NCBI GenBank assembly: GCA_002699585.1
Contig: PABP01000032.1
Span: forward strand, 138,636-202,635
Length of the DNA stretch: 64,000 bases
From: Anaerolineaceae bacterium
Lineage (GTDB): Bacteria > Chloroflexota > Anaerolineae > Aggregatilineales > Phototrophicaceae
Direction of reading: 5' to 3'
The number at the start of each line of letters is the position of its first letter. The first letter of the stretch is position 1. A program made the translations under genes and the position numbers. Below the pieces are notes generated by a model, which was given only the letters and a program-made list of their open reading frames with translations, had not been told where the DNA came from and did no database searches. Shown here piece after piece: positions 6,898 to 48,405 of this stretch.

Positions 6898-6910
6898 AAT
6901 TGTTCTTTCC

Positions 6911-9558: not shown

Positions 9559-10207
9559 TACTATCCTCCTCTGCTGCGTTCATTTGCGCCCAATAGTCAG
9601 CCATCGCCCCGAACATCAAAGCGATTGATTTGGCACCGGCATCAACATGCCCCACAGCCCGTTCTCCTACGTAACGTGCTCGTCCATATTTGGCTTGCAT
9701 ATTGGCAGTCGCTTGTGCGCCGTCTGCAGCGGCACTCGCAGCATGTCTCAATGCTTCTCCAAGAGATGTGCCTGCAGTGCTAGCTTGTGCCAGCGACGCC
9801 ACCGCGGGCGAAAGCGCATCGACCATGGTCTTATCACCGGGTTGGGCTTTTCCCCTGCTGATGACCCCTTCCAGGCCTGCCTGCCACATTGCACCGAAAA
9901 GTTCTGACGATACATCATCGAACTCTTTTACAGTCATCGCTGCGCGCAAAAACAAGGTTCCAAACAGCGCACCGGACGACCCACCCATGCGGTTCATGAG
10001 TGTCATGGCTGTCTTCTGCAGGACCTCAGACGGAGTTTGAGCTTCCTCAATTGCATTCACTGCGGCTGCAAAGCCTGCGCAGATGGTCGTGCCATGGTCG
10101 CCATCGCCTAGCTCGGAATCGAGTGCGTTCAGGTCAGACTTTGAATCGCTCAATGCTGTGCTGATAGCCTTGACCATGTCTTTCAGATTGTCCGTAGTGA
10201 TGGTCAT
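9545..10207 (-). CDS. DhaL-like nucleotide-binding subunit of a ketose kinase
   Basis: 220 residues, matching DhaL (DAK2 domain). The metal-phosphate site DSELGDGDHG (Asp30, Asp35, Asp37) and the MGGSSGALFGT and GDKTMVDAL motifs are present. ATG 10207 overlaps the DhaK stop by ATGA, so the two subunits are coupled. No phosphotransferase subunit DhaM is present in the cluster, so it is expected to use ATP. Members of this family phosphorylate dihydroxyacetone and, in characterised paralogues such as the mycobacterial tetritol pathway kinases, ketotetroses. The substrate here is unknown. Confidence 0.88.
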   Translation of the reverse strand: MTITTDNLKDMVKAISTALSDSKSDLNALDSELGDGDHGTTICAGFAAAVNAIEEAQTPSEVLQKTAMTLMNRMGGSSGALFGTLFLRAAMTVKEFDDVSSELFGAMWQAGLEGVISRGKAQPGDKTMVDALSPAVASLAQASTAGTSLGEALRHAASAAADGAQATANMQAKYGRARYVGERAVGHVDAGAKSIALMFGAMADYWAQMNAAEEDSNGEA

Positions 10208-11223
10208 GGTTGCACAACCCTGACGTTGGCACCGATGGCCGGTGCATCCCACAGGGCCTTAAGCATGTCATCCACACGACAAAGCGATAGCGCGAAACCG
10301 GCCATCTCCTGTGTCGTGGCATAGGGGCCAATGTACGTCTTGTAAACGTTGATATTGGCTTCTTCAAGAAGTTGGGCTACGCGGCGATTGAGAATAAACA
10401 ACTCCATCTGGGTCAGGCTGCCGCTGTTATTCAGGAAAACAAGAACGTCGTCACCTGCCACGAAAGGCAAGTCCTCTATAATTGGGGGCAACATGGCATC
10501 AATCGTATCGTCAGCAGAGACAAATTTGCGCCGACCCTGCCCAACCTCGCCATGTACACCCATGCCAATTTCGATTTCGTCATCAGGTAGGCTAAACATG
10601 ACCTCGCCAGATACTGGATTTGTGCCCGGGGTCATGGCGACAGCGAGGGTGCGTGTATTATCGCGGATGCTTTCTGCCATAGTCTTGCATTGTGCAAGTG
10701 TGACGCCTTCCTGCTCTGCATAAGCTCCAAGCATCTTCCAAGTGAAGAATAACCCGGCGGTGCCACGTCGTTCGGGCTCCTGACCCTTGGGCGCGCTGGA
10801 AATGTCGTCGTACAAAACCACCATTTCCACATTGTCCATGCCTTCCATCGCACAAAGTTCTAATGCCATCTCGGCATTCATCAAATCACCGGCATGGTGC
10901 GATACGCAGACAAGAACGCCAGCACCGCGGTCCGCTTCCTTGATGCCCTCTAAAATGCGGTCTGGCCCGGGAGCGGCGAAAATCTCTCCTGGCACGTTGA
11001 CGTCAAATAGGCCCGGACCAACGAGCCCAATCATGGCAGGTTCGTGGCCACTGCCATTGCCGATCATTAGTCCGACCTTGCCTTCGGCTTTTGGCTGTCG
11101 TCTCACAATTAATCCGGTGTCCGTCAGGCGGACTATGTCGGGGTACGCGGCTGCAAATCCCTCTAGCATGTCCTGCAAAATATGTTCTGGTTGATTAATC
11201 AGCTTTTTCGTTCGCGCAGCCAT
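10204..11223 (-). CDS. DhaK-like substrate-binding subunit of a ketose kinase
   Basis: 339 residues, usual for DhaK (DAK1 domain). GNGSGHEP carries His60, and GMGVHGEVG carries His224, the His that binds the ketone covalently in dihydroxyacetone kinases. Asp113 of the active-site turn is kept, but the usual NYTGD there reads HHAGD. That change next to the substrate argues for a ketose other than dihydroxyacetone. Its ATG shares one base with the DUF35 stop (TAATG), with GGAGG just upstream. With DhaL it would supply the ketose phosphate for the LacD-type aldolase. Confidence 0.88.
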   Translation of the reverse strand: MAARTKKLINQPEHILQDMLEGFAAAYPDIVRLTDTGLIVRRQPKAEGKVGLMIGNGSGHEPAMIGLVGPGLFDVNVPGEIFAAPGPDRILEGIKEADRGAGVLVCVSHHAGDLMNAEMALELCAMEGMDNVEMVVLYDDISSAPKGQEPERRGTAGLFFTWKMLGAYAEQEGVTLAQCKTMAESIRDNTRTLAVAMTPGTNPVSGEVMFSLPDDEIEIGMGVHGEVGQGRRKFVSADDTIDAMLPPIIEDLPFVAGDDVLVFLNNSGSLTQMELFILNRRVAQLLEEANINVYKTYIGPYATTQEMAGFALSLCRVDDMLKALWDAPAIGANVRVVQP

Positions 11224-11762
11224 TATTCCTCCAGTGGTGCAAAATACATTAAGTGGATCGGATGCTGTACCGGGCCTTGGTTATAGGTAACGTGCACACG
11301 CATATCGGTATGAACCTCGTTGTTTTCAGCCCTTAATAGGTGTGGGAACAGCGTCGAGCTGCCATCAAGTAAAACATAGGCCAGCACCATGGGCATCGCT
11401 TGTACGCGAACATCATCGTTGATGTTGGACGAGTAATGCATGACTGAGTATGTCTTGACGCTGCCTGTACCGGGCAATTCGTGCCAGTCAGTGATCTTTG
11501 TGCATTTGGAGCAGAGTGGGCGTGGCGGTGTATAGACAGTTTGGCACCGTGAACATTTCGTTCCTAAAAATCGACCGTTTTCCAGCTCAATAAAAAAACG
11601 CGAATATTTGCCCAGGCTGTGCTTATATTGCTGTATCAATTCGAGCGTGATAATTTCAACCTGCCGGAAGGCGGACCAGGGATCATCCTGACCAGAGATG
11701 TATTTAGGTTGTGCAGTTTTCTTTTCAAGTTGGCTCAGAATTCGCGTATCGATGTCGCTCAT
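11223..11762 (-). CDS. DUF35 zinc-ribbon/OB-fold protein, partner of a thiolase-like protein
   Basis: 179 residues. A rubredoxin-like zinc ribbon with four cysteines (CSRC and CSKC, 13 residues apart) is followed by an OB-fold domain (GTGSVKTYSVMHYS, MVLAYVLLDGSS). DUF35 proteins bind thiolase-fold enzymes: they bridge thiolase and HMG-CoA synthase in archaea and form part of the Ltp2-type retro-aldolases of steroid side-chain degradation. The extra N-terminal 60 residues resemble DUF35 partners that have a helical preamble. It lies 3 nt after the thiolase-like gene, so the two are almost certainly one complex. Confidence 0.88.
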   Translation of the reverse strand: MSDIDTRILSQLEKKTAQPKYISGQDDPWSAFRQVEIITLELIQQYKHSLGKYSRFFIELENGRFLGTKCSRCQTVYTPPRPLCSKCTKITDWHELPGTGSVKTYSVMHYSSNINDDVRVQAMPMVLAYVLLDGSSTLFPHLLRAENNEVHTDMRVHVTYNQGPVQHPIHLMYFAPLEE

Positions 11763-11765
11763 GGT

Positions 11766-12968
11766 TTAGTCGCGCCTCTCGAAAATATTAACCACACAGA
11801 TTGTGCCGATACCCGCATGTGTATCTGTTAATCCACGTCGCGCATTGTGAATCTGGCGCTCCGGGGTGACGCTCTCCCAGAGTTGCTGAACGACTTCAAT
11901 CGCTTGGGCAATGCCCGTCGCTCCGACTGGAGCACCACGTCCTAGCAGTCCCCCACTGGTGTTGACGGGCAGGTAACCATCTCGGTCGAACAGTCCATCA
12001 GCGATGGCAGGTCCACCAGAACCTTGACTAACAAATCCCAGATCTTCGACAGCCTGTATTTCAACACCGCTGTAACTATCGTAGAGTTCAGCAACGTCAA
12101 TTTCATGCAGTGGATCGCTGATGCCTGCCATCTGATAGGCTTGCCGAGCCGCTTCTCGTTTGCCTGCGAAGTTGGTCAGGTTGGGGTAGCGATCCCCCAG
12201 GCGCATGGTGTCCGTTCCGCAGCCTGTTGCTGTGAACACGACCTTGGGCCGTACGGAAAATGCAGGGCTATGCTGTTTTGCCCAGCCTTCCGTTGATAGC
12301 AAGATCGCTGCTGCGCCATCACTGAGTAGGCTACAGTCAAATAGTGTGTAAGGCTCAGCAATGGGACGCGAATTCAGAACCTCATCAATAGAGATATCCA
12401 TCGGTTTCTGGGCATTGGGGTTATCAAGGGCATTGCGTCGATTGCGCACAGCCACATGGGCGAAGTGCTCGCGTTTTGTGCTATATTTTTCCATGTGGGC
12501 GTGCATCATCGCAGCATAAAAGGCCGTATAAGTGCCCCCAACCATCATCTCCCAATCGACATCAGCAGAGAGTGCGAAGAGCTGATTAGCTGTTTGCGAT
12601 GAGATACTCTTGCCATTGGTTTCGCAGCCATACACTAGAATGGAATCACATAGGCCGCTCTGTATATATGCCCATGCGGTCCGCAACGCCAGGGCGCCTG
12701 TTGCGCCACCGCCTTCTACTCTGACATTCGGTGTCGGGTTCAAGCCCAGCGTATCGTGCAGGATCGCGCCTAGTGTCATCTGGCGATTGAAGTGATCGCT
12801 TTCGTAGCTGGTCAGGCCGTGCTGGATGGCATGCAAACTTTCAAGCTCCGCATCATGCATACAGGCAAGAACAGCTTCCACAGCCAAATCGCGTACATTG
12901 CAGTCATCACGACTGGCAGCAAATGGCGTCAAGCCTACGCCGACCACAACTGGAAGTCGATCAGTCAT
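11766..12968 (-). CDS. SCP2-type thiolase-like protein lacking the catalytic Cys and His
   Basis: 400 residues with the SCP2-thiolase architecture: VVVGVGLTPF, VEGGGATGALA, AELYDSYSGVEIQAVEDLGF and LPVNTSGGLLGRGAPVGATG. The position of the nucleophilic Cys is Gly88, and the His of the usual GHPxGATG motif is Ala346. It therefore cannot be an ordinary thiolase. Thiolase-fold proteins that lack the Cys and pair with DUF35 proteins include the retro-aldolase Ltp2, so CoA-ester aldol cleavage is the best guess. ATG 12968 overlaps the aldolase stop by 8 nt. A longer start at 12995 is possible but not needed. Confidence 0.85.
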   Translation of the reverse strand: MTDRLPVVVGVGLTPFAASRDDCNVRDLAVEAVLACMHDAELESLHAIQHGLTSYESDHFNRQMTLGAILHDTLGLNPTPNVRVEGGGATGALALRTAWAYIQSGLCDSILVYGCETNGKSISSQTANQLFALSADVDWEMMVGGTYTAFYAAMMHAHMEKYSTKREHFAHVAVRNRRNALDNPNAQKPMDISIDEVLNSRPIAEPYTLFDCSLLSDGAAAILLSTEGWAKQHSPAFSVRPKVVFTATGCGTDTMRLGDRYPNLTNFAGKREAARQAYQMAGISDPLHEIDVAELYDSYSGVEIQAVEDLGFVSQGSGGPAIADGLFDRDGYLPVNTSGGLLGRGAPVGATGIAQAIEVVQQLWESVTPERQIHNARRGLTDTHAGIGTICVVNIFERRD

Positions 12969-13947
12969 CTGACTGTTCCATACTCGGATATTCACGAAAT
13001 GACCGAGTTGATATCATCATGTCGAGATCAGGATAACGTTCTTGCCAGGGTGTGCCATAAGCCTGGGCAATCGAACTGAGCAGAGTCAGCCGTTTATGAC
13101 CCTCACTAGTTAGCCATCGTTGACGCTGTTCATAGTCACAGATTTTCGCGGCATCACCCCATAGTGCTCGCCCAACGATGAACCCCGATGCCCCGGCTCG
13201 AGAGGCGACTTCGAGCTGTCTGGCGAACATTTCAAATGTCACACCTGCGCTCAACAGCACCCAGGGGACATTAATCGACTGTGTAATAGCTTGGCAGGCG
13301 TCGAACCAAGCCGATTCATCGGGCTTTACATTTGCATCGGCGGGAAACTCCAGCTTAAGCACATCTGCTCCCAATTGGGCTACCTGCTGGGCCGATTGCA
13401 GAACCAGCTTGTCTTTTGTTTGATCGGGCTGGTCGGGTTGTATATAGACGATTGGCTCGGCATAAAAGGGGATGTCGTATCGTGTGCAATCAGCCGCCAC
13501 CTGTTGAATGACTTTCTCCTGGCGTTGAGCATGGTCGTGGACGTGAGGATTATAGTAAAAGAACAATTTGACACCATCTGCATGCATGCTTTTGATTTTG
13601 CTGACGCTCCAATCTGGGTCGATTTCGACATCCAAAGGCAGCGGCTGCATTTGATAATCTGCTTTTTCAAGCTCAACTAACAACCCATTGTTGCCCAGTA
13701 CATTGCTAACAATCGCCTGGAAAGCCCCATAGACAGGATCAAGCAGCACCCCACTGGCATCACCAATAAGTGCTCGAACAACATCCAGTTTGAAGGCTGT
13801 CATATCGGCAGCCGCGACGGTATTGGGGGCGTCAGGCTTCAAGGCGCGTTTAAGCGCATCCTGGTGGTCAATGGCGAGAATGGCAAAAATACCTTCAGGC
13901 GTACTCGCCCGTTGTAATGCACGGTATTTACCCACTGAGATCGTCAT
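12961..13947 (-). CDS. LacD-type class I aldolase (tagatose-bisphosphate aldolase family)
   Basis: 328 residues of the LacD/YihT family, Schiff-base aldolases that cleave ketose phosphates to dihydroxyacetone phosphate and an aldehyde. AIDHQDALKRAL, LLDPVYG and VKLFFYYNP are family motifs. The Schiff-base lysine is expected at Lys198 in GADVLKLEFPAD. SAGVTFEMFARQ and GFIVGRALWGDA complete the barrel. An ATG at 13947 gives a family-like N-terminus; the frame could also open at 13977, inside the aldehyde dehydrogenase gene. It should take the product of the DhaK/L kinase and feed the aldehyde dehydrogenase encoded just upstream. Confidence 0.88.
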   Translation of the reverse strand: MTISVGKYRALQRASTPEGIFAILAIDHQDALKRALKPDAPNTVAAADMTAFKLDVVRALIGDASGVLLDPVYGAFQAIVSNVLGNNGLLVELEKADYQMQPLPLDVEIDPDWSVSKIKSMHADGVKLFFYYNPHVHDHAQRQEKVIQQVAADCTRYDIPFYAEPIVYIQPDQPDQTKDKLVLQSAQQVAQLGADVLKLEFPADANVKPDESAWFDACQAITQSINVPWVLLSAGVTFEMFARQLEVASRAGASGFIVGRALWGDAAKICDYEQRQRWLTSEGHKRLTLLSSIAQAYGTPWQERYPDLDMMISTRSFREYPSMEQSDD

Positions 13948-13958
13948 ATCCGGCTGGC

Positions 13959-15473
13959 CTAATCCGTTTTGATCCATACGCTTTTGACTTCGGTATACAG
14001 GTCGATGGCCTCTTTACCCATCTCACGGCCATAACCACTCTGTTTGTACCCACCAAATGGTGACGACGCTTCGGTATTGCCCCAGGTATTGATCCAAATC
14101 GTCCCCGCACGCAGAGCCTTCGCCAGTTTATGAGCTTTGCTCAGATCCTTGGTCCACAGGCCCGCTGCCAGACCAAAATCAGTATCATTGGCCCGCTGAA
14201 TGATTTCATTGACATGGTCAAAGGGCATAGCACATACAACTGGGCCGAAAATCTCTTCACGGGCGATGCGCTGTTGGTCAGCCACATTGATGAGTATTGT
14301 AGGCTCCACAAAGTAGCCTTCTTTCAAGTCACCACTCATACGCTGCCCGCCTGTAATCACCTGAGCGCCTTGGGCCAGGCCTTCATCAACGTAACCCATG
14401 ACCCGTTTGAGATGTTCATCGCTGATAACAGGACCCAGGTTGTATTTTTCTTGTGACATACCGGGTCCGACTTTGATTCGTTTGGTGGCCTGCTCCAGGC
14501 CATCTAGTACTTGCTCGAAGACGCTGCGCTCGATATATAGGCGTGAGCCAGCCGTGCAGGATTGACCGTTGTTCCCGAAAATGGCCCAGGTTGAGCCAAT
14601 GGCAGCGGCTTCCAGGTCGGCGTCAGCGAAGACGATGTTGGGCGCTTTCCCACCCAGTTCCAGCGAAACGCGCTTGAGGTTGCCAACAGATCCCTGAACG
14701 ATTTTTTGGGCAACTTCTGTACTGCCTGTAAATCCAATCTTGTCAACCCCATCGTGTGTGACGAGTGCCGCTCCGGCTTCTTCACCATAGCCCGGTAATA
14801 CATTAAATACACCGGGTGGGAAGCCCGCTTCTGCTGTCAGTTTGGCGATATAGAGGGCACTGAGGGGCGTTTGTTCGGCAGGCTTGACGATGATGCAGTT
14901 ACCCGCCGCCAATGCCGGAGCGAATTTCCAGGTTGCCATCAACAGCGGATAGTTCCAGGGAGAAATCAATCCGACTACGCCGACAGGCTCTCGCAGCGTA
15001 TAGTTGAACATGTTCTGTGGGCTGACGGGAATCGTGCTGCCTTCGATCTTGGTCGGCCAACCTGCATAGTAATAGAGATGATCTGCCGAGAGTGGCACAT
15101 CGACCGTACGTGCGGTATGCAAAGGCTTACCATTATCGAGTGAGTCCAACTGGGCGATGATGTCTGCATGCACTTCGATAAGTTCAGCCAAGCGCCAGAT
15201 ACATTTTGATCGATCTGCTGCTGACATCTTTTGCCACCAATCGCCTTCATCAAAGGCACGCCGCGCAGCCTGCACAGCGGCATTGGCATCATCTAGCATG
15301 CAGCGTCCGATACTTGCCAGGTATCGACCTGTCGAAGGATCGAGCGTGTCAAATGTTTGCCCAGAAAGTGTCGCCACATATTCACCGTTGATATAAGGCA
15401 TAATTGGCTTTGCCAGGAAGTCAGCGACCTCTGGCAGCAGTGAGACATATGTCTCTGGGAATTTATCTACCAT
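13959..15473 (-). CDS. NAD(P)-dependent aldehyde dehydrogenase
   Basis: 504 residues, class 1/2 aldehyde dehydrogenase. Catalytic Cys306 in GQSCTAG, general-base Glu272 in LELGGKAPN and Asn174 in SPWNYP are all present, as is the cofactor loop GFTGSTEVA. ATG 15473 is used; a longer frame reaches back into the phosphorylase gene. Lying directly before the aldolase gene, it probably oxidises the aldehyde that the aldolase releases, for example a lactaldehyde or a longer hydroxyaldehyde, to an acid that could then be activated by the CaiB-type protein. Confidence 0.9.
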   Translation of the reverse strand: MVDKFPETYVSLLPEVADFLAKPIMPYINGEYVATLSGQTFDTLDPSTGRYLASIGRCMLDDANAAVQAARRAFDEGDWWQKMSAADRSKCIWRLAELIEVHADIIAQLDSLDNGKPLHTARTVDVPLSADHLYYYAGWPTKIEGSTIPVSPQNMFNYTLREPVGVVGLISPWNYPLLMATWKFAPALAAGNCIIVKPAEQTPLSALYIAKLTAEAGFPPGVFNVLPGYGEEAGAALVTHDGVDKIGFTGSTEVAQKIVQGSVGNLKRVSLELGGKAPNIVFADADLEAAAIGSTWAIFGNNGQSCTAGSRLYIERSVFEQVLDGLEQATKRIKVGPGMSQEKYNLGPVISDEHLKRVMGYVDEGLAQGAQVITGGQRMSGDLKEGYFVEPTILINVADQQRIAREEIFGPVVCAMPFDHVNEIIQRANDTDFGLAAGLWTKDLSKAHKLAKALRAGTIWINTWGNTEASSPFGGYKQSGYGREMGKEAIDLYTEVKSVWIKTD

Positions 15474-15486
15474 AATGCACTTTACT

Positions 15487-16242
15487 TTAAAGTTGTTCGG
15501 CCAATTCGAGCGCGACTTCATAAACTGCTTGATTGCTGCGATCCAGTTGTTCCTGGCCCCCTGGCGGCAGCGGGTCCAAAAAGCGTCTGCCCCGCGTCAG
15601 GTCATCCCACACGACCACCATCGACACGGCAGCCATATCAAAATGGTGGGCGACGGCATAGGTCGTGGCGGTTTCCATCTCCACGGCCAGATACCCAGCT
15701 CGATGCCATGCTTCCATCATCTGTGGTGTTTCCGTAAATAACGATGACCAGGTGACATGTGGACCGCGATAGGTCGTATGTCCACGAGATTGCAGACTAT
15801 TTTGTGCTTTGTCTAACCACTCGCTAGAGCCTAAAATCGCATCAGGCGCACCATACATGTGGGCGACCCCTTCCCGGCAAATCGCAACCTCTGGCAGGAT
15901 GATGTCACCGGGGCGCAAGTGTGATTGCAGGCCGCCGCAGGTTCCAATCTGTATAGCCAGTTTCGCCCCCAGAACGCCAAAAAGGTGAATCACCTCGACG
16001 GTACGGGCTGCGCCATAGGCCATAGAAAAAGCGACTTTCTTGTCCTTCCAGCGCCCCCAAAAAATATCGGGGAACGTCAGCTCGCGCACATCTTCTAAAT
16101 AGCCCAGACGCCAGTTTGTCCGTTGTTCACGCCACCAGCTGCCTTCAACAATCACAACATCTGGCACTTCGGCGGCGGACAGGCCCATTGCGTCTAACCA
16201 TTCCGGCGCTCGGATGTCCATGATGGATCGGAAAGTTACCAT
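15487..16242 (-). CDS. Nucleoside phosphorylase family protein
   Basis: About 251 residues of the purine nucleoside/uridine phosphorylase family (PNP_UDP_1), which splits N-ribosides with phosphate to give a sugar 1-phosphate. AIQIGTCGGLQ is the phosphate/ribose loop and AVEMETATTYAVA the nucleoside-binding segment; RPGDIILPEVAICREG is typical. The N-terminal 70 residues (PDVVIVEGSWWREQR) are unusual. ATG 16242 is preferred because GGGGT lies 7 nt upstream, just after the GH42 stop; GTG 16251 is an alternative. One of three glycosyl-bond-cleaving proteins of nucleoside type in this cluster; the substrate is unknown. Confidence 0.82.
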   Translation of the reverse strand: MVTFRSIMDIRAPEWLDAMGLSAAEVPDVVIVEGSWWREQRTNWRLGYLEDVRELTFPDIFWGRWKDKKVAFSMAYGAARTVEVIHLFGVLGAKLAIQIGTCGGLQSHLRPGDIILPEVAICREGVAHMYGAPDAILGSSEWLDKAQNSLQSRGHTTYRGPHVTWSSLFTETPQMMEAWHRAGYLAVEMETATTYAVAHHFDMAAVSMVVVWDDLTRGRRFLDPLPPGGQEQLDRSNQAVYEVALELAEQL

Positions 16243-16255
16243 GATCGACACCCCA

Positions 16256-18457
16256 TTAATTCAGCAGCACAATAGCGCCGTCTTCGGCAGGTAGATGCAG
16301 GGAAAACTGCGCACAATCTGTCTGCGTGAGTTCCAACTTGGCTTCTGTAAACATCTCGGTTGCCATCGTTATCTCCTTTGCAGCCGGAACGCGAACCGTG
16401 ACATCGACAGCAGACTCGCCCTCGTTGTTGAGCAAAATGGCATATTGATCGGCATCAACCAGCAAGTGAGCATCAACTCGCTGCCGAATGTATTCAGCAT
16501 TTTCGCCACTGAGGAGCACATCTTTCTTTACGCCAGATAGGGCCATGAGATTGTCAAAGAGTTTGCGTAGGTCGGGGTCAGGATGCTCCCAGTACGCCAT
16601 ATCCAGGTGGGTAGCGATCAGGATAGCGTGGCCCTGCCCATGTTGACGCCGGATGATGGCCGGCGCACCATCGAGAAAGCGCGCGAGCACCTCAACATCA
16701 TCAGAAAGATCAAACTCCTGTCGATGCCAGAATCCGGCAAGGTTGTCAGCTTCAATGCCATCGAACAGGTCTGAACCATGATCAACCTGAAGCGTGATTT
16801 TCTCGTGTGGCTCCCGGAATACTTCGATATGGGTTTCTGTAGCTCCAAATAGACTCGTCAATCCAGCCCCAGGACGGTTGTTCCACGCCCAACCGCGTTC
16901 ATTCACGTGTCCTAATTTGGCGAAACCAATCACTGTGCCACCTTGTTGCACAAACTCACGCAGGCTTTCAGCATGGGTCTCTGGCAAGTGCATGACGAAA
17001 GGGAGCAGAATGACACGGTAATCAGCTGTTGTTTCCCCCAGGAAGCGCGGTTCGACAAATTGGAGCGTATAGTCTGCTTCCCACAAAGCAAGATGTGCAC
17101 CGCGCAACGCCCTATAGAGAAACTGCTCATTTGCTTGTCCATCGAGCAGAATCACATTTTCGTGTGAATGGTAGAATGCAACCTGAGCTTGTGGTGGCAG
17201 GGCATCCAGGAAAAAAGCTTCGTGCTGTTTGATAATGTGGTTGACTTCAGCGGCAGCATGATAGCGTGCGGTGGGCTGGCCGTGGAAATCGACCAACGCG
17301 CCCCAGGTCAGCGGAATGAAGTTCCAATCGCGGTAACCCTGATATAGCATACATTTTGCACCGTGCCCCACGCAGGCGATGTTAAACCGCTTGATGTCCA
17401 GCGGACCGGTCGCAAAGTTGGGTCCTGCGGAAAAACCACCAATAGGACCGCTTTCCAACTCAGGAACCCACATGGTTTTGTCATTGTGATGCGCTACTGA
17501 GTAAGCAAAATCGAAAAACCAGGACGAAAACGAGGGGTCTTTGCGAAAGTTGTTCTCTGAGGGGTAGATGTCATGGCCAATAATATCGGTAATGCCGCCG
17601 ATGTCCCAATGGTTAGGTTCATTACGTGCGCCGAGATCAGGCCGCAAGCAATCATAGAGATTATGCATGGTGATCTGGTTCGGATCGTAGGCTTTGATGA
17701 GTGCATGCTGGAAGCGCACATAATCCGCGATAGATCGCTGCACAAAGATACGAAAGTCAAGCCAGGCTGTGCCATTTCCCCATTCAGCCGGCATCGAACG
17801 TGGCAATTGGATTTGATGCCAATCGTAATAACGATAGTGTGTAGGGTCCCATGCCCAGGCTTCGTTTAAGGCATCGATTTTCTCATATTTTGTCTGAATA
17901 TATTCGCGGAATAATCGCTCACAGTGATCACAGTAACACCAGTAACCGTAGCGCCGTCCATGGGAATGCTCGGCTTCGGTAAAGGCGGTGCCATGACCAA
18001 TCTGATTATCGATCTGCCAGCAGTACAATGTGGGATTGCTGCTGTACCGCTTAAGTAAGATCGTCAGATAGCGCGTCACTTCACTCCGCAAGCCGGGGTT
18101 GTTAACACAGGCCCAGCCCCAGACGGTATTTGTCGGGTACTTCATGCCTTCGCGGGAGACACGCTGTAAGTCCGGGTAGTGCTCCAGCATCCAGATGGGA
18201 GGATTACATGAGCCAGTCCCCAGCACAATTTGCATTCCCTGGGCGGCAGCCAGCTCAAAAGTATGGTCGAGCCAATCAAACTCAGGTTGTCCGCGTCGGG
18301 GTTCGATGTAATCCCAACTGGTGATCAGCTCCGCTGTGCGGATGATATTAAGCCCGGCTCGCTGCATATTGGCAATGTCACGCGGCCAGTCTGCTGAGTC
18401 ATGTGTCGGCGGATAGTAGCTAGAGCCAATCGGGAAATACGGCGTTTGGATTTTCAT
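16256..18457 (-). CDS. GH42 beta-galactosidase-family enzyme with acid/base Glu replaced by Gln
   Basis: 733 residues, full GH42 length: a TIM barrel (SYYPPTHDSADWPRDI at the N-terminus), a Zn-type Cys cluster WCYCDHCE, a trimerisation domain and a C-terminal beta domain. The acid/base motif, normally WQIDNE, reads WQIDNQIG with Gln152 (codon CAG at 18002-18004). The nucleophile Glu is kept in WVPELESG (Glu333). Retaining glycosidases with Gln at the acid/base position, such as plant myrosinase, act on substrates whose leaving group needs no protonation. The enzyme is probably active but specialised, or it binds without cleaving. Its stop lies 13 nt before the ATG of the phosphorylase gene. 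Confidence 0.9.
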   Translation of the reverse strand: MKIQTPYFPIGSSYYPPTHDSADWPRDIANMQRAGLNIIRTAELITSWDYIEPRRGQPEFDWLDHTFELAAAQGMQIVLGTGSCNPPIWMLEHYPDLQRVSREGMKYPTNTVWGWACVNNPGLRSEVTRYLTILLKRYSSNPTLYCWQIDNQIGHGTAFTEAEHSHGRRYGYWCYCDHCERLFREYIQTKYEKIDALNEAWAWDPTHYRYYDWHQIQLPRSMPAEWGNGTAWLDFRIFVQRSIADYVRFQHALIKAYDPNQITMHNLYDCLRPDLGARNEPNHWDIGGITDIIGHDIYPSENNFRKDPSFSSWFFDFAYSVAHHNDKTMWVPELESGPIGGFSAGPNFATGPLDIKRFNIACVGHGAKCMLYQGYRDWNFIPLTWGALVDFHGQPTARYHAAAEVNHIIKQHEAFFLDALPPQAQVAFYHSHENVILLDGQANEQFLYRALRGAHLALWEADYTLQFVEPRFLGETTADYRVILLPFVMHLPETHAESLREFVQQGGTVIGFAKLGHVNERGWAWNNRPGAGLTSLFGATETHIEVFREPHEKITLQVDHGSDLFDGIEADNLAGFWHRQEFDLSDDVEVLARFLDGAPAIIRRQHGQGHAILIATHLDMAYWEHPDPDLRKLFDNLMALSGVKKDVLLSGENAEYIRQRVDAHLLVDADQYAILLNNEGESAVDVTVRVPAAKEITMATEMFTEAKLELTQTDCAQFSLHLPAEDGAIVLLN

Positions 18458-19540
18458 CTAGGGCGCTTTTTCTAGCTTTGTGAAAAAGTCACGGAAGATG
18501 GCATCACGGTTGATTCCGTAAGCTTCTCGCATTAAATGACGGCTGTCATCTTGCTCGTAAAACAGGTCCTGGGTCAAAATAGGTGAATGGACGAGGTGAG
18601 AAGGCACCCATTCTGGATTTAGTAACCAGGCAATGTTGATGATATCCCAGATCACCCAGGTGCGACCGAATTGTTCATTCAGACCAAACATTGGATAAAT
18701 CGGATTGTGGGTGTAAAGATGATGGAGATAGTCACCGATTTTGCCTTTGCCTTTAACCCAACGTTCCATATCCGGCAGGGAAATTTTGAGCTGCTCACCG
18801 ATGTAATAACCGGGCAGATACACATGGGGAACGCCGCAATCGAACAAGAGACGTGACGCATGCGGGTCCTGGACCAGATTGAGCGAGGGGACATTCGATA
18901 GCTTGACGTGTGAGGGATAAGAACTGGTCCATAGCACAACGATGCGGTTGATGATCTCCGGCTCCATCAAGATGGCCGATGCAATATTCGTCACACAGCC
19001 TATTGCTGCAATATATAGTGGGCGCTCGTTGTCGGCCATTGCACGTTCAATGATGAATTCAGCGGCGGGTGTACGCAGAGGGATGTCTGCTGCTTCAAGG
19101 TAACCTGGCGAACCCCGGTAGACTTTGCCAGTAGCATCTTCTTCCATCAGGTCATAGACCTTCAAGATTTCCTGATAACTCAGTTCCATGCCCTCATCTG
19201 GCGGATAAAAAACCAGATCATGCGGGTTGATGTCATTGGCAATCATGTTTTTAACCGACTGCTGATACTTCCTTAAAAAGTCAGATAAATCAGCGTTTGG
19301 GTCGGCTTTAAGGGCATCATAGGCCTTTGTCAGTGGTTCTTTATGGTGCTGATGCGAATATGGCTCCGCCAAAACACCTTCGATTTCAAGCGCATCTTGT
19401 GAGAGCAATGCCCAGGCGATGGCATATTGGTCATCGATTTCGTTATGGGTGTCCGTATCAATGATGAGGCGTATCTTGCCTGACGGCAGCGCTAGCCTTT
19501 GGCGCATCGTATCTTCAGATAGTTTGGGGAAGTTTGGCAC
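18458..19540 (-). CDS. Inosine-uridine nucleoside hydrolase-like protein
   Basis: About 360 residues related to the calcium-dependent nucleoside N-ribohydrolases. The N-terminal Asp cluster is present but spaced out as DTDTHNEIDD (Asp28, Asp30, Asp36, Asp37), and AAIGCVTNIASAI, DPHASRLLF and WDIINIAW match later family blocks. The normal HD near the C-terminus is WD. Insertions make it longer than the usual 310 residues. GTG 19540 is chosen because GAGAGGA lies 7 nt upstream; ATG 19570 has no ribosome site. The stop abuts the GH42 ATG. It could release a pentose from a nucleoside-like compound. Confidence 0.8.
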   Translation of the reverse strand: MPNFPKLSEDTMRQRLALPSGKIRLIIDTDTHNEIDDQYAIAWALLSQDALEIEGVLAEPYSHQHHKEPLTKAYDALKADPNADLSDFLRKYQQSVKNMIANDINPHDLVFYPPDEGMELSYQEILKVYDLMEEDATGKVYRGSPGYLEAADIPLRTPAAEFIIERAMADNERPLYIAAIGCVTNIASAILMEPEIINRIVVLWTSSYPSHVKLSNVPSLNLVQDPHASRLLFDCGVPHVYLPGYYIGEQLKISLPDMERWVKGKGKIGDYLHHLYTHNPIYPMFGLNEQFGRTWVIWDIINIAWLLNPEWVPSHLVHSPILTQDLFYEQDDSRHLMREAYGINRDAIFRDFFTKLEKAP

Positions 19541-19580
19541 GGATGAATCCTCTCGGTCAATAAGTATCATGAAAAATGAT

Positions 19581-20663
19581 CTAAAGTAGCGCGCCTAGAT
19601 CGTCAACATTCTGACGAGCTATCTGATAGTCCTGCTCAATGAGTTGGGTCAGTTTTTGAGAATACATGTACATATCAACATCTAGGTTGCCATCAATGAC
19701 GGGTTGTATCCATTCTTTGGGGATGCCATCAACGCCCTGATAAGCACCTGCGAGCGCGCCAGCCACGCTGGCATAGCTGTCTTTATCGCGGCCATACATG
19801 ATCGCACCCATGATCGATTGCTTGGCGCCACCCTCGGCAGCCACGAACATCGACAGGGCAACTACCAGCGTATGGATTGCTTCAGAAAACAGGTGTCCCC
19901 ATTCAAGGATTTCCATTAAGGGTTCACGGATAGCGAAGACATCACGTTTGTCTCTGGCAACTTCTAAGGCCCGATCTAGAAATTGCAGGTTAGGATCGTA
20001 GCGCCATTCGGTATTGTGCCAGTGATCGCCTTCTCTGCGACGAGCAAAACGGATATGTGCATGTCGTGCTGCTTCGATGATGCCGTCAACACTGGCCGTA
20101 GGCCGCATCGCTTCTGCTATGGCTGCAACCAATATAGCTGAGCTATTCTTGGCATACCCAGCCGTCAGGAACGCCATGTCAAAGCCCAGTTGGTAGGCTT
20201 CATCAGGTTGACAGGCTGTGATTAACCCAAGTGGCGAATTGGCCATGAGGGAACCATTGGTTGGCTCACCGCCGAATGCGACCTTATCCTCTTGCCAGAG
20301 GGCCTTCATATAGTATTCTTCGATAAAACCTTCATGGAGTGGGTCAGGCGCATTGTGATACGCTTCTGCCAGGACCATCGCCAGGTCGCCAGGCCGAGGC
20401 TTGCCTCCAGCACGGAAGATTGCCTGACAGTGCAGATGCTTGAGGCGCGTATCATCAGTATAGTTGCCGATGGCATCACCACTGGCAAAATGGGCGTGGT
20501 GCGCCGGTGGGCGGCGATATGGCACATAGCGATCCAGATTGCCCCCATAACTTTCGCGGATTTCTTCGGGCGTCATGTGCTCGACAGGACCACCCAGGGC
20601 GTCGCCAATTGCTCCGCCAAGCATGCACCCATACACTTTATTAAACAGTCTGGATTCAGACAT
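19581..20663 (-). CDS. ADP-ribosylglycohydrolase family protein
   Basis: 360 residues of the DraG/ARH fold, di-magnesium enzymes that cleave ADP-ribosyl bonds; many members in sugar loci act on other ribosides or have unknown roles. GCMLGGAIGDALGGPVE, YTDDTRLKHL (Asp70, Asp71) and the C-terminal metal motif GRDKDSYASVAGALAGAYQG are all present. The initiator ATG 20663 overlaps the stop of the ATPase gene (ATGTCTGA). Its place between an importer and glycosidase-like genes points to processing of an imported glycoside rather than protein de-ADP-ribosylation (inference). Confidence 0.85.
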   Translation of the reverse strand: MSESRLFNKVYGCMLGGAIGDALGGPVEHMTPEEIRESYGGNLDRYVPYRRPPAHHAHFASGDAIGNYTDDTRLKHLHCQAIFRAGGKPRPGDLAMVLAEAYHNAPDPLHEGFIEEYYMKALWQEDKVAFGGEPTNGSLMANSPLGLITACQPDEAYQLGFDMAFLTAGYAKNSSAILVAAIAEAMRPTASVDGIIEAARHAHIRFARRREGDHWHNTEWRYDPNLQFLDRALEVARDKRDVFAIREPLMEILEWGHLFSEAIHTLVVALSMFVAAEGGAKQSIMGAIMYGRDKDSYASVAGALAGAYQGVDGIPKEWIQPVIDGNLDVDMYMYSQKLTQLIEQDYQIARQNVDDLGALL

Positions 20664-21714
20664 TTTGGAGACCATTTTCACTCGGCAGCAACCAGATATG
20701 GGTTTTAGGTAATTGAATAGGCAGTGTTTGTCCCACCTCAATCTCAAAGTCAGCCGGGCCATGTGCCAACCAGGTATGCCCCATTACATCAAGCTGAACT
20801 TGTTTATGGGTGCCCATGTATACCTGTGTTAGGACTTTCGCCTGGACGAGGTTAGTATTGTCACTTGGAACAAGCGCTACATCTTCTGGTCGGACGGTAA
20901 CCATCACGGGACCGTCCGACTGGTCGACACGGCCCGCGTCAATCTCAAGATTACCTGATGGAGTTTCGACCACACTGCCTCGGCGTGTTCCGAGTATCAT
21001 ATTGTCATTGCGGAAGAAGCGAGCGACCTGGGCGGAATTGGGCCTTTCATAAAATGCCTGTGGTGTATCGAACTGCTGCAAAACACCGTTGAACATCAAG
21101 GCAATACGGTCTGCTAGCATGACCGCCTCTTCTTGATCATGAGTAACGAAGATCGCAGTTGTATTCAGCTCGTTCTGTATCGTGCGGATGAGTTCGCGCA
21201 TTTCCAGGCGCAAATTGGCATCCAGATTCGCCAGGGGTTCATCCAGCAGGAGCACATTCGGACGAACAATCAATGCGCGCGCTAGGGCAATGCGCTGCTG
21301 TTGCCCGCCTGATAGCTCGTGCGGACGGCGTGTCTCAAAGCCGGGCAATCGAACTAGCTCCAGCATCTCGCTGACTCGCCTATCGATTTCTTTCTGAGGC
21401 ATCTTGGCCATACGCAAACCAAAACCAATGTTTTTGGCAACATTCATCGTAGGGAACAACAGGTGCTTCTGGAAGACCATCACAGCCCCCCGTTTTTCCG
21501 TTGGGATAGTCAGCACGGACTTACTATCGAATAGGACATCACCCGAGGTTGGAAGTAGTAGGCCAGTAATCATGCGGAGCGTGGTTGTTTTGCCACAGCC
21601 GGATGGTCCGAGAAATGCCACCATCTCACCTGACTCAATTTCCAGGTTCAGATTGTTTACAGCGATGACTGAGTCGAAGCGCCGTGTTAGGTCCTTGATT
21701 AAAACGTGCGTCAT
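20656..21714 (-). CDS. ABC transporter ATPase with TOBE domain
   Basis: 352 residues. The ATPase domain has Walker A GPSGCGKTT, signature LSGGQQQRIALARA, Walker B LLLDEPLANLD and the H-loop VTHDQEEA. A C-terminal TOBE-type domain follows (VMVTVRPEDVALVPSD). This is the PotA/FbpC/YnjD arrangement used with paired permeases. It overlaps the upstream permease stop by ATGA. It energises import by the two permeases and the YnjB-like binding protein. Confidence 0.93.
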   Translation of the reverse strand: MTHVLIKDLTRRFDSVIAVNNLNLEIESGEMVAFLGPSGCGKTTTLRMITGLLLPTSGDVLFDSKSVLTIPTEKRGAVMVFQKHLLFPTMNVAKNIGFGLRMAKMPQKEIDRRVSEMLELVRLPGFETRRPHELSGGQQQRIALARALIVRPNVLLLDEPLANLDANLRLEMRELIRTIQNELNTTAIFVTHDQEEAVMLADRIALMFNGVLQQFDTPQAFYERPNSAQVARFFRNDNMILGTRRGSVVETPSGNLEIDAGRVDQSDGPVMVTVRPEDVALVPSDNTNLVQAKVLTQVYMGTHKQVQLDVMGHTWLAHGPADFEIEVGQTLPIQLPKTHIWLLPSENGLQNV

Positions 21715-22514
21715 AGTCGACCAAATCCTCCCATGACAGCTGAGTCCTGACCCAATTGTCGTGAAATTAATACGAGTACCAGGATTGCCGGGGCAACAAA
21801 TATAAGGCTAATGGCGGCAGCGTTGGAATAATTGACGCCACTTATGAATGGGAACAATACCATCGGCAGCGTGACAATTGTGCCGCCACCAATCAAAACA
21901 CTTGTGATGTACTGTCCCCAGGAAATCAAGAAAGTAAACATAGTCGCGACCATCAACCCTGGTAAGATACCAGGTAGAGTCACACGTAACAGGACCTGGA
22001 GTGGATTCGCGCCCAGTGTACGCGCAGTGTCTTCGAGTTCAGTGCCATAGTTGGCAAACACACTCGTCATTACCAACACCATATACGGAATGCACGGAAT
22101 CAAATGAACAAGGCTGACACCAATAAATGTATTGGTCAAATGAAGGCGGATGAAGAGTTGGTGGATTCCTAGTGTGGAAACAATCCCTGGAACAATGATA
22201 GGAACCATCAATATCCACTCGACAAGTCCCTTACCTTTGAAGTCGTTCAAAGCGATAGCACGAGCAGCGGGCAAACCCACCAAAATCGACAGGAAACAGA
22301 CGAATGTTGCAATGAGTAGACTGTTGATGAAACCTTCGCCAACCCGCGAAGATGCTGTGAAAACGTACTCCCACGAACTCAGGCTCCATTCGGTTGGCAG
22401 CAAATTCGGGAATAACCAGCGATGGGCGAACGACCAGATAATCTGGGGAACAACGGGCAACAAAACGCCCAAGGTAATTGAGATGGCTGCAATCCAGCGC
22501 ACTGCTTTTTGCAT
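21711..22514 (-). CDS. ABC transporter permease (second)
   Basis: 267 residues with about six membrane segments and the binding-protein-dependent transport signature EDTARTLGANPLQVLLRVTLPGI (cytoplasmic EAA loop, EDTARTLGAN). It resembles PotC/YnjC-type permeases. It lies 9 nt after the first permease gene and overlaps the ATPase gene by 4 nt, so these genes form one transport operon. Confidence 0.92.
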   Translation of the reverse strand: MQKAVRWIAAISITLGVLLPVVPQIIWSFAHRWLFPNLLPTEWSLSSWEYVFTASSRVGEGFINSLLIATFVCFLSILVGLPAARAIALNDFKGKGLVEWILMVPIIVPGIVSTLGIHQLFIRLHLTNTFIGVSLVHLIPCIPYMVLVMTSVFANYGTELEDTARTLGANPLQVLLRVTLPGILPGLMVATMFTFLISWGQYITSVLIGGGTIVTLPMVLFPFISGVNYSNAAAISLIFVAPAILVLVLISRQLGQDSAVMGGFGRL

Positions 22515-22523
22515 GGGAATTTC

Positions 22524-23396
22524 CTAAGTTTCTGCTGCGTACTTGGCAAGACGCTTGTAAGCAACCAAGAGTAGTATGGCCACGATTGCCAGGATGACAC
22601 TGATAGCCATTGCTTGTGGTCTAAGCGCTAAATCCGGGTCCTGATAATTGCGGAAGGCCATTACAGGCAATGTTGTTGGGTATCGCACACCCAGTAGCAG
22701 CGGAATCTCGTAATTAGCGAAAACGAAAGCAAAAACAATGATGGATGTTGATAGAATGCCCGGCATGATGAGCGGCAACAGAACAAAGCGGAAGCGCTGC
22801 CAACGATTTGCTCCCAACGTCTGTGCGATTTCTTCATATTGTGGCCCAACACTCTTGAGTACCGCTAGAACAACAATGCCAATAAAAGGCACTTCTTTCC
22901 ATAAATATGTCAGTTGGATAGCAATGCCGGGTCGGTCAAATACCATGACGGGGAAATCTCGCGGTGTACTGGTCAAACCCAGTGTAACGGCCCCACGCGA
23001 CAACAACCCACTTTGGCTGACGAGCAGGACGATACCGGTCGCAACGACTAAATGCGGTATCGGTATCGGTATTTGGTAAAGGAAAGTGAGGAATTGGCTA
23101 CCTCGAAAGGCATGTCTCAAGACCAGCGCGAAGAGCACGGCGATTACTGACGACATCAACGTACTCAAAAATGCGAGCCTAAACGTAAGCCATAAGGATT
23201 CGATGAAACCACTATCTGTCAGGATGTCTCTGTAATAATCCAGAGTGAAATCTTGCAGTCCAATCACCGGGAAGTAACCCACACTCTGTCCAATGCCGGA
23301 GATCATGCCACCGCCGAATAGCAATACGACAATTGCCAGTGCCGGGAAGAGCATCATCGGCACTCGGAGTTTCTCAAAAAGTTTGAGGCGATTCAT
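22524..23396 (-). CDS. ABC transporter permease (first)
   Basis: 290 residues with about six membrane segments and the EAA-type loop EEIAQTLGANRWQRFRF. Paired with the next permease as a heterodimer. A long stem-loop in the gap before it (23413-23440) separates it from the abundant binding protein. Confidence 0.92.
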   Translation of the reverse strand: MNRLKLFEKLRVPMMLFPALAIVVLLFGGGMISGIGQSVGYFPVIGLQDFTLDYYRDILTDSGFIESLWLTFRLAFLSTLMSSVIAVLFALVLRHAFRGSQFLTFLYQIPIPIPHLVVATGIVLLVSQSGLLSRGAVTLGLTSTPRDFPVMVFDRPGIAIQLTYLWKEVPFIGIVVLAVLKSVGPQYEEIAQTLGANRWQRFRFVLLPLIMPGILSTSIIVFAFVFANYEIPLLLGVRYPTTLPVMAFRNYQDPDLALRPQAMAISVILAIVAILLLVAYKRLAKYAAET

Positions 23397-23412
23397 ACCA
23401 GCTCCTGCTAGA

Positions 23413-23440
23413 CAGATGGTCGGCTTATGCCGACCATCTG
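23413..23440 (-). promoter_or_regulatory. 12-bp perfect stem-loop between binding-protein and permease genes
   Basis: CAGATGGTCGGC and its exact complement are separated by a 4-nt loop TTAT. There is no T-run, so it is unlikely to be a full terminator. Such hairpins after the first gene of ABC operons usually protect the upstream mRNA from 3' decay and raise the binding protein level over the membrane subunits; that role is inferred from position. Confidence 0.8.
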
Positions 23441-23451
23441 CTGGCGAGATG

Positions 23452-24714
23452 TTAGTTTTCTAATACGTTTTCGATCCATCCAGCTTCAATCGCCGTGACC
23501 CAATCACCGTTGGGTTCTGGCAAAGCTGCAGCTGCGAGGACAGTGGATGGCAACATGGCGGGATGCAATTCCATATTGTCGACTGCTTCCTGGAATTCAT
23601 CCGAATAGACCGTGGGCGAAATCGGCGATTGCCAGGCCCATAGTTCCGGATCGACCATCTTCAATTGGAATTCCTCAGACAGCATGTAGTTAGCAATAAC
23701 CATCGCGCCAGCTGGATTGGTAGCATTGAACGGAATGGCTACGAAGTTGTTATTGGAAATCGTTCCGGTATCGAAAACGAATGTGCGGATAGATTCTGGG
23801 TAAATACCCTGGAGGATGTTATTAGCGGCATTCGCTGGACCATAGCCCATATTGAAGGCAATTTCCTGGTTGGCGAGCATGCTATCCATCACGGTTGCTT
23901 CCGGATAGGTTTCGCCACCACGCCACAGATGGGGTTCTATTTCGTTTAGATAGTCCCATACCGCCGGGGCATATTCATCGAAAACATCCTGATCGAATTC
24001 TCCTAGGAAGGGTTCGGGGCCACCAGCGACCCAGTAAAAGACATGACGGACGAACACGCTACCAGTAAAATCAGGCAATGCTGGATAAGTGAATAGCCCA
24101 GGATTTTCTTCGATCCATGTCGTCAGGTCTTCAAATGTCGTCGGTGGTGTATCACCTACCAGATCGGTATTGTATTCCATCACGAACTGAGCATGACCCC
24201 AGGGGGATTCGTAGCCGTCGACAGCGTAGCCAAAGTCATATGCTAGGGCAGGGTCATCCCAATTAACGTAACGAGCATTGGGAATGGATTCTGCCCAGGG
24301 GCCATAAAGCAGGTCAGCTTCTTTAAGCGTGCGGAAGTTCTCACCATTTATCCACATGAGATCGATGGTGCCCTGTTCCACACCGGCTGAGGCTTCATTC
24401 AACACCTGGTCTACAAAGAGTTCAGCACCATTTGGAACCCGATTAAGCGTGACGCCATACAATTCTTGGACACGTTCGCCGATATCTGTATCAACATTCG
24501 TATTGATCTGATCATCGCCACCCCACATCCACCAGGTGACTGTGGTACCTTCAGCAGCGGCCAGTACTTCTTCCCAGCTGTCGAACCCAGGAACTTCTCC
24601 CTGAAGTTCATCATCCATCTGATCTTGAGCTATTAGCGCGCCTGTTGCTACCATAAGGAGCGCAATCATAACCATAAGACCACTAATTAAAGAATATCGT
24701 CTGGATAAAAACAT
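23452..24714 (-). CDS. YnjB-like ABC transporter substrate-binding protein
   Basis: 420 residues related to Escherichia coli YnjB (COG4134), the binding protein of an ABC system of unsettled substrate. It starts at ATG 24714, where GAGGAGA lies 7 nt upstream; the frame opens earlier at 24738 without a site. A signal peptide (hydrophobic stretch ending ATGALIAQD) precedes the mature chain. VTWWMWGGDDQINTNVD, DLMWINGENFRTLKEA and LLYGPWAESIPN are hallmark YnjB segments. Here it serves the sugar cluster, so it likely binds the imported glycoside. Confidence 0.88.
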   Translation of the reverse strand: MFLSRRYSLISGLMVMIALLMVATGALIAQDQMDDELQGEVPGFDSWEEVLAAAEGTTVTWWMWGGDDQINTNVDTDIGERVQELYGVTLNRVPNGAELFVDQVLNEASAGVEQGTIDLMWINGENFRTLKEADLLYGPWAESIPNARYVNWDDPALAYDFGYAVDGYESPWGHAQFVMEYNTDLVGDTPPTTFEDLTTWIEENPGLFTYPALPDFTGSVFVRHVFYWVAGGPEPFLGEFDQDVFDEYAPAVWDYLNEIEPHLWRGGETYPEATVMDSMLANQEIAFNMGYGPANAANNILQGIYPESIRTFVFDTGTISNNNFVAIPFNATNPAGAMVIANYMLSEEFQLKMVDPELWAWQSPISPTVYSDEFQEAVDNMELHPAMLPSTVLAAAALPEPNGDWVTAIEAGWIENVLEN

Positions 24715-24766
24715 AATTAATCTCCTCAGTAAATTCAAATTCTCGGGATTATTTCCTTGTCAAACT

Positions 24767-24855: not shown

Positions 24856-25701
24856 TTAGGCAACGTTCTCTCTCAAAAACGCGAGCGAAGTCTTTATTTC
24901 CTCATCCAGATTCTCGACTAGGGACCGCCATGTATTGACCGTACGTCCCGTTTCCGCATTTGGATTAGGAAATGTCTCAATGATCATGTCTTTTTGATAA
25001 CCAATTTCATCCAGGGCACGTTTGATGTCATGCCAATTGATATGCCCCTGTCCCGGCAATTTGCGATTGCTGGCAGCACAATGAAAGTGCCCTAAGTTTG
25101 GACCTGCTCGTCTAATCGCCGCAGCGAGGTTGTCCTCTTCCATATTCATGTGATAAGTATCTAGTTGGAGCTTCACAGCTGGGTGGTCAATCTGCTGGAG
25201 GAACACCAGTCCTTCATCAACCGTATTGAACATAAAGGTTTCAAAGCGATTGAGTACCTCTAACGTGAGTACAATACCTAAGTCGTCAGCAATGCGTGCA
25301 ACTTCTTTGAGTGCTCTTGCACTACGATCACGATAGGGTCTGAGGTCATCGGTCTGTGGAAAGAACAGCCAGGGTGCGTAGGTCACACCACCCAGTGCGG
25401 GGCTATCGAGCTTTGCAGCCGTTTCTAGGCATTGGCGCAAATACGTTACACCCGCTTGACGAACGGCCGCGTTCGGGCTGGTGATATCTGTTTCTGTACT
25501 AAGGCCCGTACTACAGAAAACGCGCAAGTTGAGACGCTCCAACTCATCGCGCATACGGGGAATATTGATGGTTTCAGGGCCAGAGACAAAGGATATTTCG
25601 ACGCTGTCGAACCCGCAATCATGCGCTTTCTGAAAATAAGCGATCTGGTCGTCCGACCATTGGTCAATCCAATAAAATATTTCAATACCAATTTTGCGCA
25701 T
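24856..25701 (-). CDS. D-tagatose/D-psicose 3-epimerase family ketose epimerase
   Basis: 281-residue TIM barrel of the xylose isomerase-like superfamily. The four metal and catalytic residues of ketose 3-epimerases are present with exact family spacing: Glu148 (EVLNRFET), Asp181 and His184 (LDTYHMNMEE), His207 (GHFHCAASNR) with Arg213, and Glu242 (IETFPN). In Pseudomonas cichorii D-tagatose 3-epimerase these are E152, D185, H211 and E246, so the intervals are the same. It inverts C3 of a free ketose. As the first gene of the cluster, it indicates that a free ketose occurs in the pathway. Confidence 0.9.
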   Translation of the reverse strand: MRKIGIEIFYWIDQWSDDQIAYFQKAHDCGFDSVEISFVSGPETINIPRMRDELERLNLRVFCSTGLSTETDITSPNAAVRQAGVTYLRQCLETAAKLDSPALGGVTYAPWLFFPQTDDLRPYRDRSARALKEVARIADDLGIVLTLEVLNRFETFMFNTVDEGLVFLQQIDHPAVKLQLDTYHMNMEEDNLAAAIRRAGPNLGHFHCAASNRKLPGQGHINWHDIKRALDEIGYQKDMIIETFPNPNAETGRTVNTWRSLVENLDEEIKTSLAFLRENVA

Positions 25702-25928: not shown

Positions 25929-26675
25929 GTGTATCAATCTGAAATTCCAGTACGCTGTCATAGCCGGAGCAACAATTCCACCGTGTCGGACTATTCTTCT
26001 CCCATAGATGCCATCTCGTTGCCAAATCTCAATGACGTTGTCTATGATAGACTGCGTGAAGCTATTTTGCGTCTTGAATTTGAACCTGGCGAGCGTTTGA
26101 ACTTGCCAGAACTTGAGGAAAAACTACAGGTCAGCCGAACACCTCTGAAGAACGCCCTGACACGACTAGAGATGGAAGGGTTAGTGGCCATTCATCCACG
26201 GCGTGGCACGTTCATCTCAGAAGTGAGCAAAGAAAAGCTAGAAGAAGAATACAAAATTCGCAGTGCCTATGAGCTTTATGTTGCTCTGTGTATCTATAAG
26301 TACTTGTCACCAGAGGACTATGTATTCTTTGATAACATTTGGCGTCAAATGAATGAGCTAGCCCACAAAGCTGAATCACTGGGTTGGCAAAACGTGATCC
26401 ATAAGTATCTCTTGCTCGACTATGCGCTACATGAACGGTTCGTTGTGCGAGGGGGTCCCCCTCGAATGATCGTATTATGGCAACAAACTAACGTACATAT
26501 GCAGGTCAGTCGCATTGCTGGACGTTTGAGTGATTATGATTGTGATATGATACATTTTGAGCATCAACAAATCCTTGATGCTCTACATTTCGGTTCTCCA
26601 GAGCGGCTAAGTGCATCACTACTAAATCATCTGGAGTCCTCACGATTCAGAGTGGTAAGTATCCTAAAGGGCTAG
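25929..26675 (+). CDS. GntR-family regulator, FadR subfamily (FCD domain)
   Basis: Up to 248 residues: a winged-helix DNA-binding domain (YDRLREAILRLEFEPGERL, LQVSRTPLKNALTRLE, GLVAIHPRRGTFIS) and an all-helical FCD ligand domain with candidate metal His residues (YALHERFV, HFEHQQIL). The start is uncertain: GTG 25929 gives an odd N-terminal tail, and GTG 25983 would begin just before the conserved part; neither has a good ribosome site. Divergent from the large cluster, so it probably represses or controls it in response to a sugar acid or sugar phosphate. Confidence 0.88.
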   Translation: MYQSEIPVRCHSRSNNSTVSDYSSPIDAISLPNLNDVVYDRLREAILRLEFEPGERLNLPELEEKLQVSRTPLKNALTRLEMEGLVAIHPRRGTFISEVSKEKLEEEYKIRSAYELYVALCIYKYLSPEDYVFFDNIWRQMNELAHKAESLGWQNVIHKYLLLDYALHERFVVRGGPPRMIVLWQQTNVHMQVSRIAGRLSDYDCDMIHFEHQQILDALHFGSPERLSASLLNHLESSRFRVVSILKG

Positions 26676-48195: not shown

Positions 48196-48405
48196 GCATG
48201 ATAGAAATTAAGGCGAAATACGCTATTCAAAGCAACAGGATGGGATTCTTCTGATTGAAACTGACTAGAAAGAAACAATTTATGACATCTTACATGCCAG
48301 CTACATGACGTAAAGACAGGCTCTACAAACGAGCTTTATTCTGGCAGTAATGTATTACAGTTATACTGAATTTAGTTGATTCAACACGAAGTTGGGATTC
48401 AGTCA

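Follow-up and report, generated by a model that had tools for sequence, protein, structure and literature searches.

Can a GH42 protein still act as a glycosidase when the glutamate that serves as its general acid/base has been replaced by glutamine, and if so, which bond does it cleave? This question is raised by an open reading frame of 733 amino acids located on the minus strand (positions 16256 to 18457) of the 64,000-nucleotide stretch of Anaerolineaceae DNA analyzed here, to which we refer as the window. The encoded GH42-fold protein matched the Pfam profiles Glyco_hydro_42, with 207.4 bits (curated cut-off, 21), and the GH42 trimerisation domain, with 56.8 bits (curated cut-off, 25.8). 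It was aligned to 1kwg, 3tts, and other GH42 proteins. In both pairwise and profile alignments with the Thermus A4 beta-galactosidase (1kwg), Gln152 (codon CAG, 18002 to 18004, minus strand) fell on the acid/base residue Glu141, which corresponds to Glu160 of BiBga42A, and Glu333 (17459 to 17461, minus strand) fell on the nucleophile Glu312. The original prediction that the acid/base Glu is absent and that the nucleophile Glu is retained was thus confirmed on both counts. A frame or sequencing error at Gln152 was discarded, since the independent assemblies of two other genera also encode WQIDNQ. Inspection of the N-terminus by eye revealed no obvious signal peptide, and the protein is probably cytosolic.

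Homologs were searched for in 98 genomes from the family, 396 from the class, and 400 from the phylum, together with a pattern-based scan of ~85,000 species genomes. Across all these searches, only two close orthologs were found, sharing 80% (G025/L004) and 74% (G059/L005/L036) identity with the window protein. They belong to other genera of the same family as the window, and both contain WQIDNQ, the Gln codons being CAG and CAA; the Gln form is hence known from three assembled genomes. In a maximum-likelihood tree built from 19 GH42 proteins, the three Gln proteins formed one clade with 100/100 support, and the tree requires a single E-to-Q change. The nearest relatives outside this clade (L037/G010, L040/G376, L041/G212, L042/G292, and L043 and L049/G270), which are from the same class and ~32 to 43% identical, bear Glu and are referred to below as the Glu-bearing sisters. 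Alignment of GH42 members thus yielded a clade with a common Gln and the same neighbor genes. This clade is a single lineage, and features that co-occur in it may count as one event. Among the Gln orthologs, dN was 0.14 to 0.18 and synonymous differences were near saturation, which argues for strong purifying selection on these proteins and led us to reject drift as the cause of Gln152.

The motif WQIDN[E/Q] was matched 77 times at the DNA level in the 396 genomes of the class, with Glu in 72 matches and Gln in 5. The four WQIDNQ matches located outside the window were dismissed as independent cases because none of them is in a GH42 gene. A scan of viral contigs did not reveal any relative of the window GH42, and the plasmid scan returned only distant GH42 proteins (~26% identity or less among the matches listed). 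In open-licence papers, we found no GH42 protein with a natural Gln at the acid/base position. Another divergent GH42-like group (L044, L045, L046, and L025) carries WDLWSEP or WNTFQEI at this position; the acid/base Glu is kept in these proteins, and the Asn that precedes it is replaced by Ser or Gln.

The original prediction had considered the protein otherwise intact and had assumed a galactoside as substrate, and both views were contradicted by the residues of the sugar site. In BiBga42A, O6 of galactose is bound by Trp326 and His369, O4 by Arg121 and Glu366, and O3 by Arg121, while Phe356 stacks on the galactose ring; Asp285 binds both O2, together with Asn159, and O1, together with Tyr287 (PMC10688820). 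The window protein retained the machinery around C1 and C2 (Asn151, Asp296, Tyr298, and Glu333), but Arg121, Trp326, Phe356, Glu366, and His369 were replaced by Val112, Gly341, Gln373, Pro382, and Trp385, respectively, so that the residues reading O3, O4, and O6 are gone. Site saturation at the position of Glu366 inactivated a related enzyme (PMC12887932). The same five galactose-recognition residues were replaced in the Glu-bearing sisters, which retained the complete catalytic set; the whole subfamily is thus affected. Because of this loss, the subfamily, including the window protein, is judged from its sequences unlikely to consist of beta-galactosidases, and the departure from galactose most likely preceded the Glu-to-Gln change. 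The subfamily is therefore a misannotation trap, as sequence files its members under beta-galactosidases in spite of the lost galactose-recognition residues.

The GH42 gene is part of a long minus-strand operon, the gene order of which was preserved in G059 over most of its length. Its first half encodes a D-psicose-3-epimerase-like TIM barrel (24856 to 25701), an ABC importer (20656 to 24738) composed of a solute-binding protein (23452 to 24738), two permeases (22524 to 23396 and 21711 to 22514), and an ATPase (20656 to 21714), an ADP-ribosylglycohydrolase (DraG)-family protein (19581 to 20762), a nucleoside-hydrolase-like (IUNH-like) protein (18458 to 19570; Pfam IU_nuc_hydro) whose stop codon adjoins the start codon of the GH42 gene, the GH42 protein itself, and a PNP/UDP-phosphorylase-superfamily (PNP-like) protein (15487 to 16251; Pfam PNP_UDP_1) that abuts the 3' end of the GH42 gene. 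From there onward, the operon encodes an aldehyde dehydrogenase (13959 to 15521), a LacD/YihT-like class I aldolase (12961 to 13977), a thiolase (11766 to 12995) with its OB-fold partner (11223 to 11762), dihydroxyacetone-kinase-type DhaK (10204 to 11223) and DhaL (9545 to 10252), a sugar-isomerase-like protein (8110 to 9558), an MFS transporter (6911 to 8113), and a class III CoA-transferase (5698 to 7047). A GntR/FCD regulator encoded divergently on the plus strand (25929 to 26675), a distant homolog of which is also present in the G010 operon, likely controls these genes.

Classical nucleoside hydrolases have a DxDxxxDD metal motif, unlike the spaced motif DTDTHNEIDDQ of the IUNH-like protein, whose function is uncertain. 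In the PNP-like protein, the phosphate-site Arg of bacterial PNP (RVGSCG) aligned with a Gln (IQIGTCG) that is kept in G059, and this protein may be a hydrolase instead of a phosphorylase. The isomerase-like protein had no Pfam match and scored 128 bits against the sulfoquinovose isomerase SftI, a weak similarity in view of the curated cut-off of 700; it is probably a member of an unnamed sugar isomerase family. Given this score, and a YihT/LacD-like aldolase that matched at the family level only, sulfoquinovose catabolism was rejected as the function of the operon. The thiolase with its OB-fold protein and the class III CoA-transferase were found inside an otherwise sugar-type operon. The operon of G010 also contains a thiolase and a CoA-transferase, which showed 75 to 79% identity to those of the window, compared with 43% for the GH42 protein. 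The operon region is flanked by an IS481/IS3-like transposase (4387 to 5277, minus strand) and a serine recombinase (27344 to 28993, plus strand), and it could be mobile. Elsewhere in the window, a very long ORF of 2661 amino acids was observed on the plus strand (48376 to 56361).

Comparison of the neighborhoods of the Gln and Glu versions bears on the product that is released. The isomerase-like gene shared a contig with the GH42 gene and was located within ~10 kb of it in 7/7 checkable genomes, that is, those with a long enough contig (the G025 contig spans only 5 kb), and these comprised both Gln and Glu versions. This conserved partner suggests that an aldose is released in free form and disfavors a phosphorylase; since it is common to both versions, they probably release a similar aldose and differ in the leaving group. 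The same partner disfavors the action on glycosyl phosphates that the original prediction had entertained. A further alternative, a phosphorylase (also named in the original prediction) or a transglycosidase, supposes that phosphate or another strong nucleophile intercepts the glycosyl-enzyme, so that no base is required, and that a good donor requires no acid. Phosphate is accessible to a cytosolic protein, and GH1 variants with Gln in place of the acid/base work effectively as transferases when the donor is good and the acceptor nucleophilic (PMC1781453). However, no sugar-1-phosphate-handling gene was recognized among the annotated operon genes, and the conserved partner is of the free-sugar-isomerase type, which makes this alternative improbable.

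The two genes abutting the GH42 gene point in another direction. Orthologs of the IUNH-like and PNP-like proteins were found in 3/3 Gln genomes and in 0/5 Glu genomes, some of the latter being incomplete. The Glu versions in G376 and G270 are near a different IUNH-family gene, and that in G376 is also near a DraG-family gene. The association with nucleosidase-type genes is thus partly a trait of the subfamily that extends beyond the Gln clade, and the idea that such neighbors explain the Gln is weakened accordingly. The two nucleosidase-type genes that abut only the Gln version nevertheless lend a degree of circumstantial support to N-glycosides, one of the substrate classes proposed originally, and make an N-linked leaving group the first candidate. 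The same surroundings bear on the view that the protein is not a glycosidase at all: it would have lost catalysis and serve in binding or regulation, or else hydrolyze a different type of bond, like soybean hydroxyisourate hydrolase, which provides a precedent (PMC1781453). Nucleosidase-type genes on either side and the disappearance of the acid/base as well as of the residues that read galactose speak for this view, which we nonetheless regard as unlikely: the nucleophile, Asn151, Asp296, and Tyr298 are retained, and the Glu-bearing sisters possess the full catalytic set along with the same isomerase-like partner.

Taken together, our preferred reading, to which we assign a probability of about 0.45, is that the window protein, a member of a divergent GH42 subfamily other than the beta-galactosidases, may be catalytically active in the cytosol as a retaining glycosidase and, having itself lost the acid/base, cleave substrates whose leaving group needs no protonation. 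A myrosinase-like loss of the acid with the nucleophile kept, as initially suggested, remains the simplest reading, now detached from the galactoside and from the intact site. The ABC importer would take up a small glycoconjugate, the anomeric carbon of which would be attacked by Glu333 while Asn151, Asp296, and Tyr298 hold O2 and O1. The aglycone, already a good leaving group, would depart without proton donation; our first guess is an N-linked heteroaromatic base of the nucleobase or pyridine type, while an aglycone of the ester, thio, or enol type would also be possible. Water would then open the glycosyl-enzyme, perhaps assisted by an external base or by the substrate itself. Isomerization of the released aldose to a ketose would follow, and the kinase and the aldolase would convert this ketose into dihydroxyacetone phosphate (DHAP) and an aldehyde, the latter being subsequently oxidized. 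The catalytic activity, the kind of leaving group, the sugar, and the pathway are all predicted from sequence and gene context. The narrower proposal of a GH42-fold retaining TIM-barrel N-glycosidase that has shed its acid/base and cleaves an N-linked nucleoside-like conjugate, within a catabolic operon for such a conjugate, is doubtful.

Published data on acid/base variants are relevant to this mechanism. Removal of the acid/base in BiBga42A (E160A) lowered kcat 170-fold on an activated aryl galactoside and changed Km little (PMC10688820); with ~1/170 of the kcat remaining, substrates with good leaving groups are still turned over, albeit slowly, by a GH42 fold that lacks the acid. Myrosinases of family GH1 are a recognized exception that operates without an acid/base (PMC6522968). 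GH1 enzymes with Gln at this position function with good leaving groups, and two such rice GH1 proteins are thought to be possibly active as transferases (PMC1781453).

Alternatively, the acid/base may have been relocated rather than lost, making the protein an O-glycosidase with a rebuilt geometry. The loop directly after Gln152 (IGHGTAFTEAEHSHGRRYGYW; 17939 to 18001, minus strand) is longer in the Gln clade than in the Glu-bearing sisters, and four of its residues that could have taken over the role, Glu161, Glu163, His164, and His166, were invariant in 3/3 Gln proteins. Room for such a residue could possibly be provided by Thr384 (17306 to 17308, minus strand), within PLTWGALVD, a position occupied by Thr in the Gln clade and by His (PLHW/PIHW) or Arg in the Glu-bearing sisters. 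The invariance of the loop residues carries little weight in a clade with a mean column identity of 87%. AlphaFold2 prediction on the three Gln proteins reached a pLDDT of 37.7 and a pTM of 0.28, a model too poor for active-site geometry. We consider relocation to be a credible but minority possibility.

If the preferred reading, the loss of the acid/base in an active glycosidase, is true, the Gln clade would represent a natural and fixed loss of this residue in a bacterial retaining family beyond GH1, and thereby another instance of the myrosinase solution. The Gln clade and the Glu-bearing sisters, in comparable operons, form a natural pair with which to ask which chemistry drives the loss of a catalytic residue. 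The sisters resemble the Gln proteins in the loss of galactose reading, in the sugar-isomerase-like partner and, in several cases, in the kind of ABC importer; they differ in the acid/base Glu, in the His or Arg at position 384, and in the absence of the flanking IUNH-like and PNP-like orthologs.

Among known systems, the GH42 beta-galactosidases (Thermus A4, 1kwg; BiBga42A, 8ibr/8ibs/8ibt) share with the window protein the fold family, the trimerisation domain, the Cys cluster, the Asn before the acid/base, the Asp-x-Tyr pair, and the nucleophile Glu, whereas the Gln at the acid/base position, the five replaced galactose residues, and the longer loop set the window protein apart. Plant myrosinases (GH1), which are retaining glycosidases, likewise combine a kept nucleophile with Gln at the acid/base position, an arrangement that would suit leaving groups that need no protonation; however, they belong to another family, use ascorbate as a cofactor, and cleave thioglucosides, features with no recognized counterpart in the window protein. 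Soybean hydroxyisourate hydrolase, which is related to GH1 and, having lost its glucose-binding residues, opens a ring derived from a purine (PMC1781453), is also of a family other than that of the window GH42, but it resembles the latter as a glycosidase fold that is tied to purine-type metabolism and has lost its sugar-binding residues.
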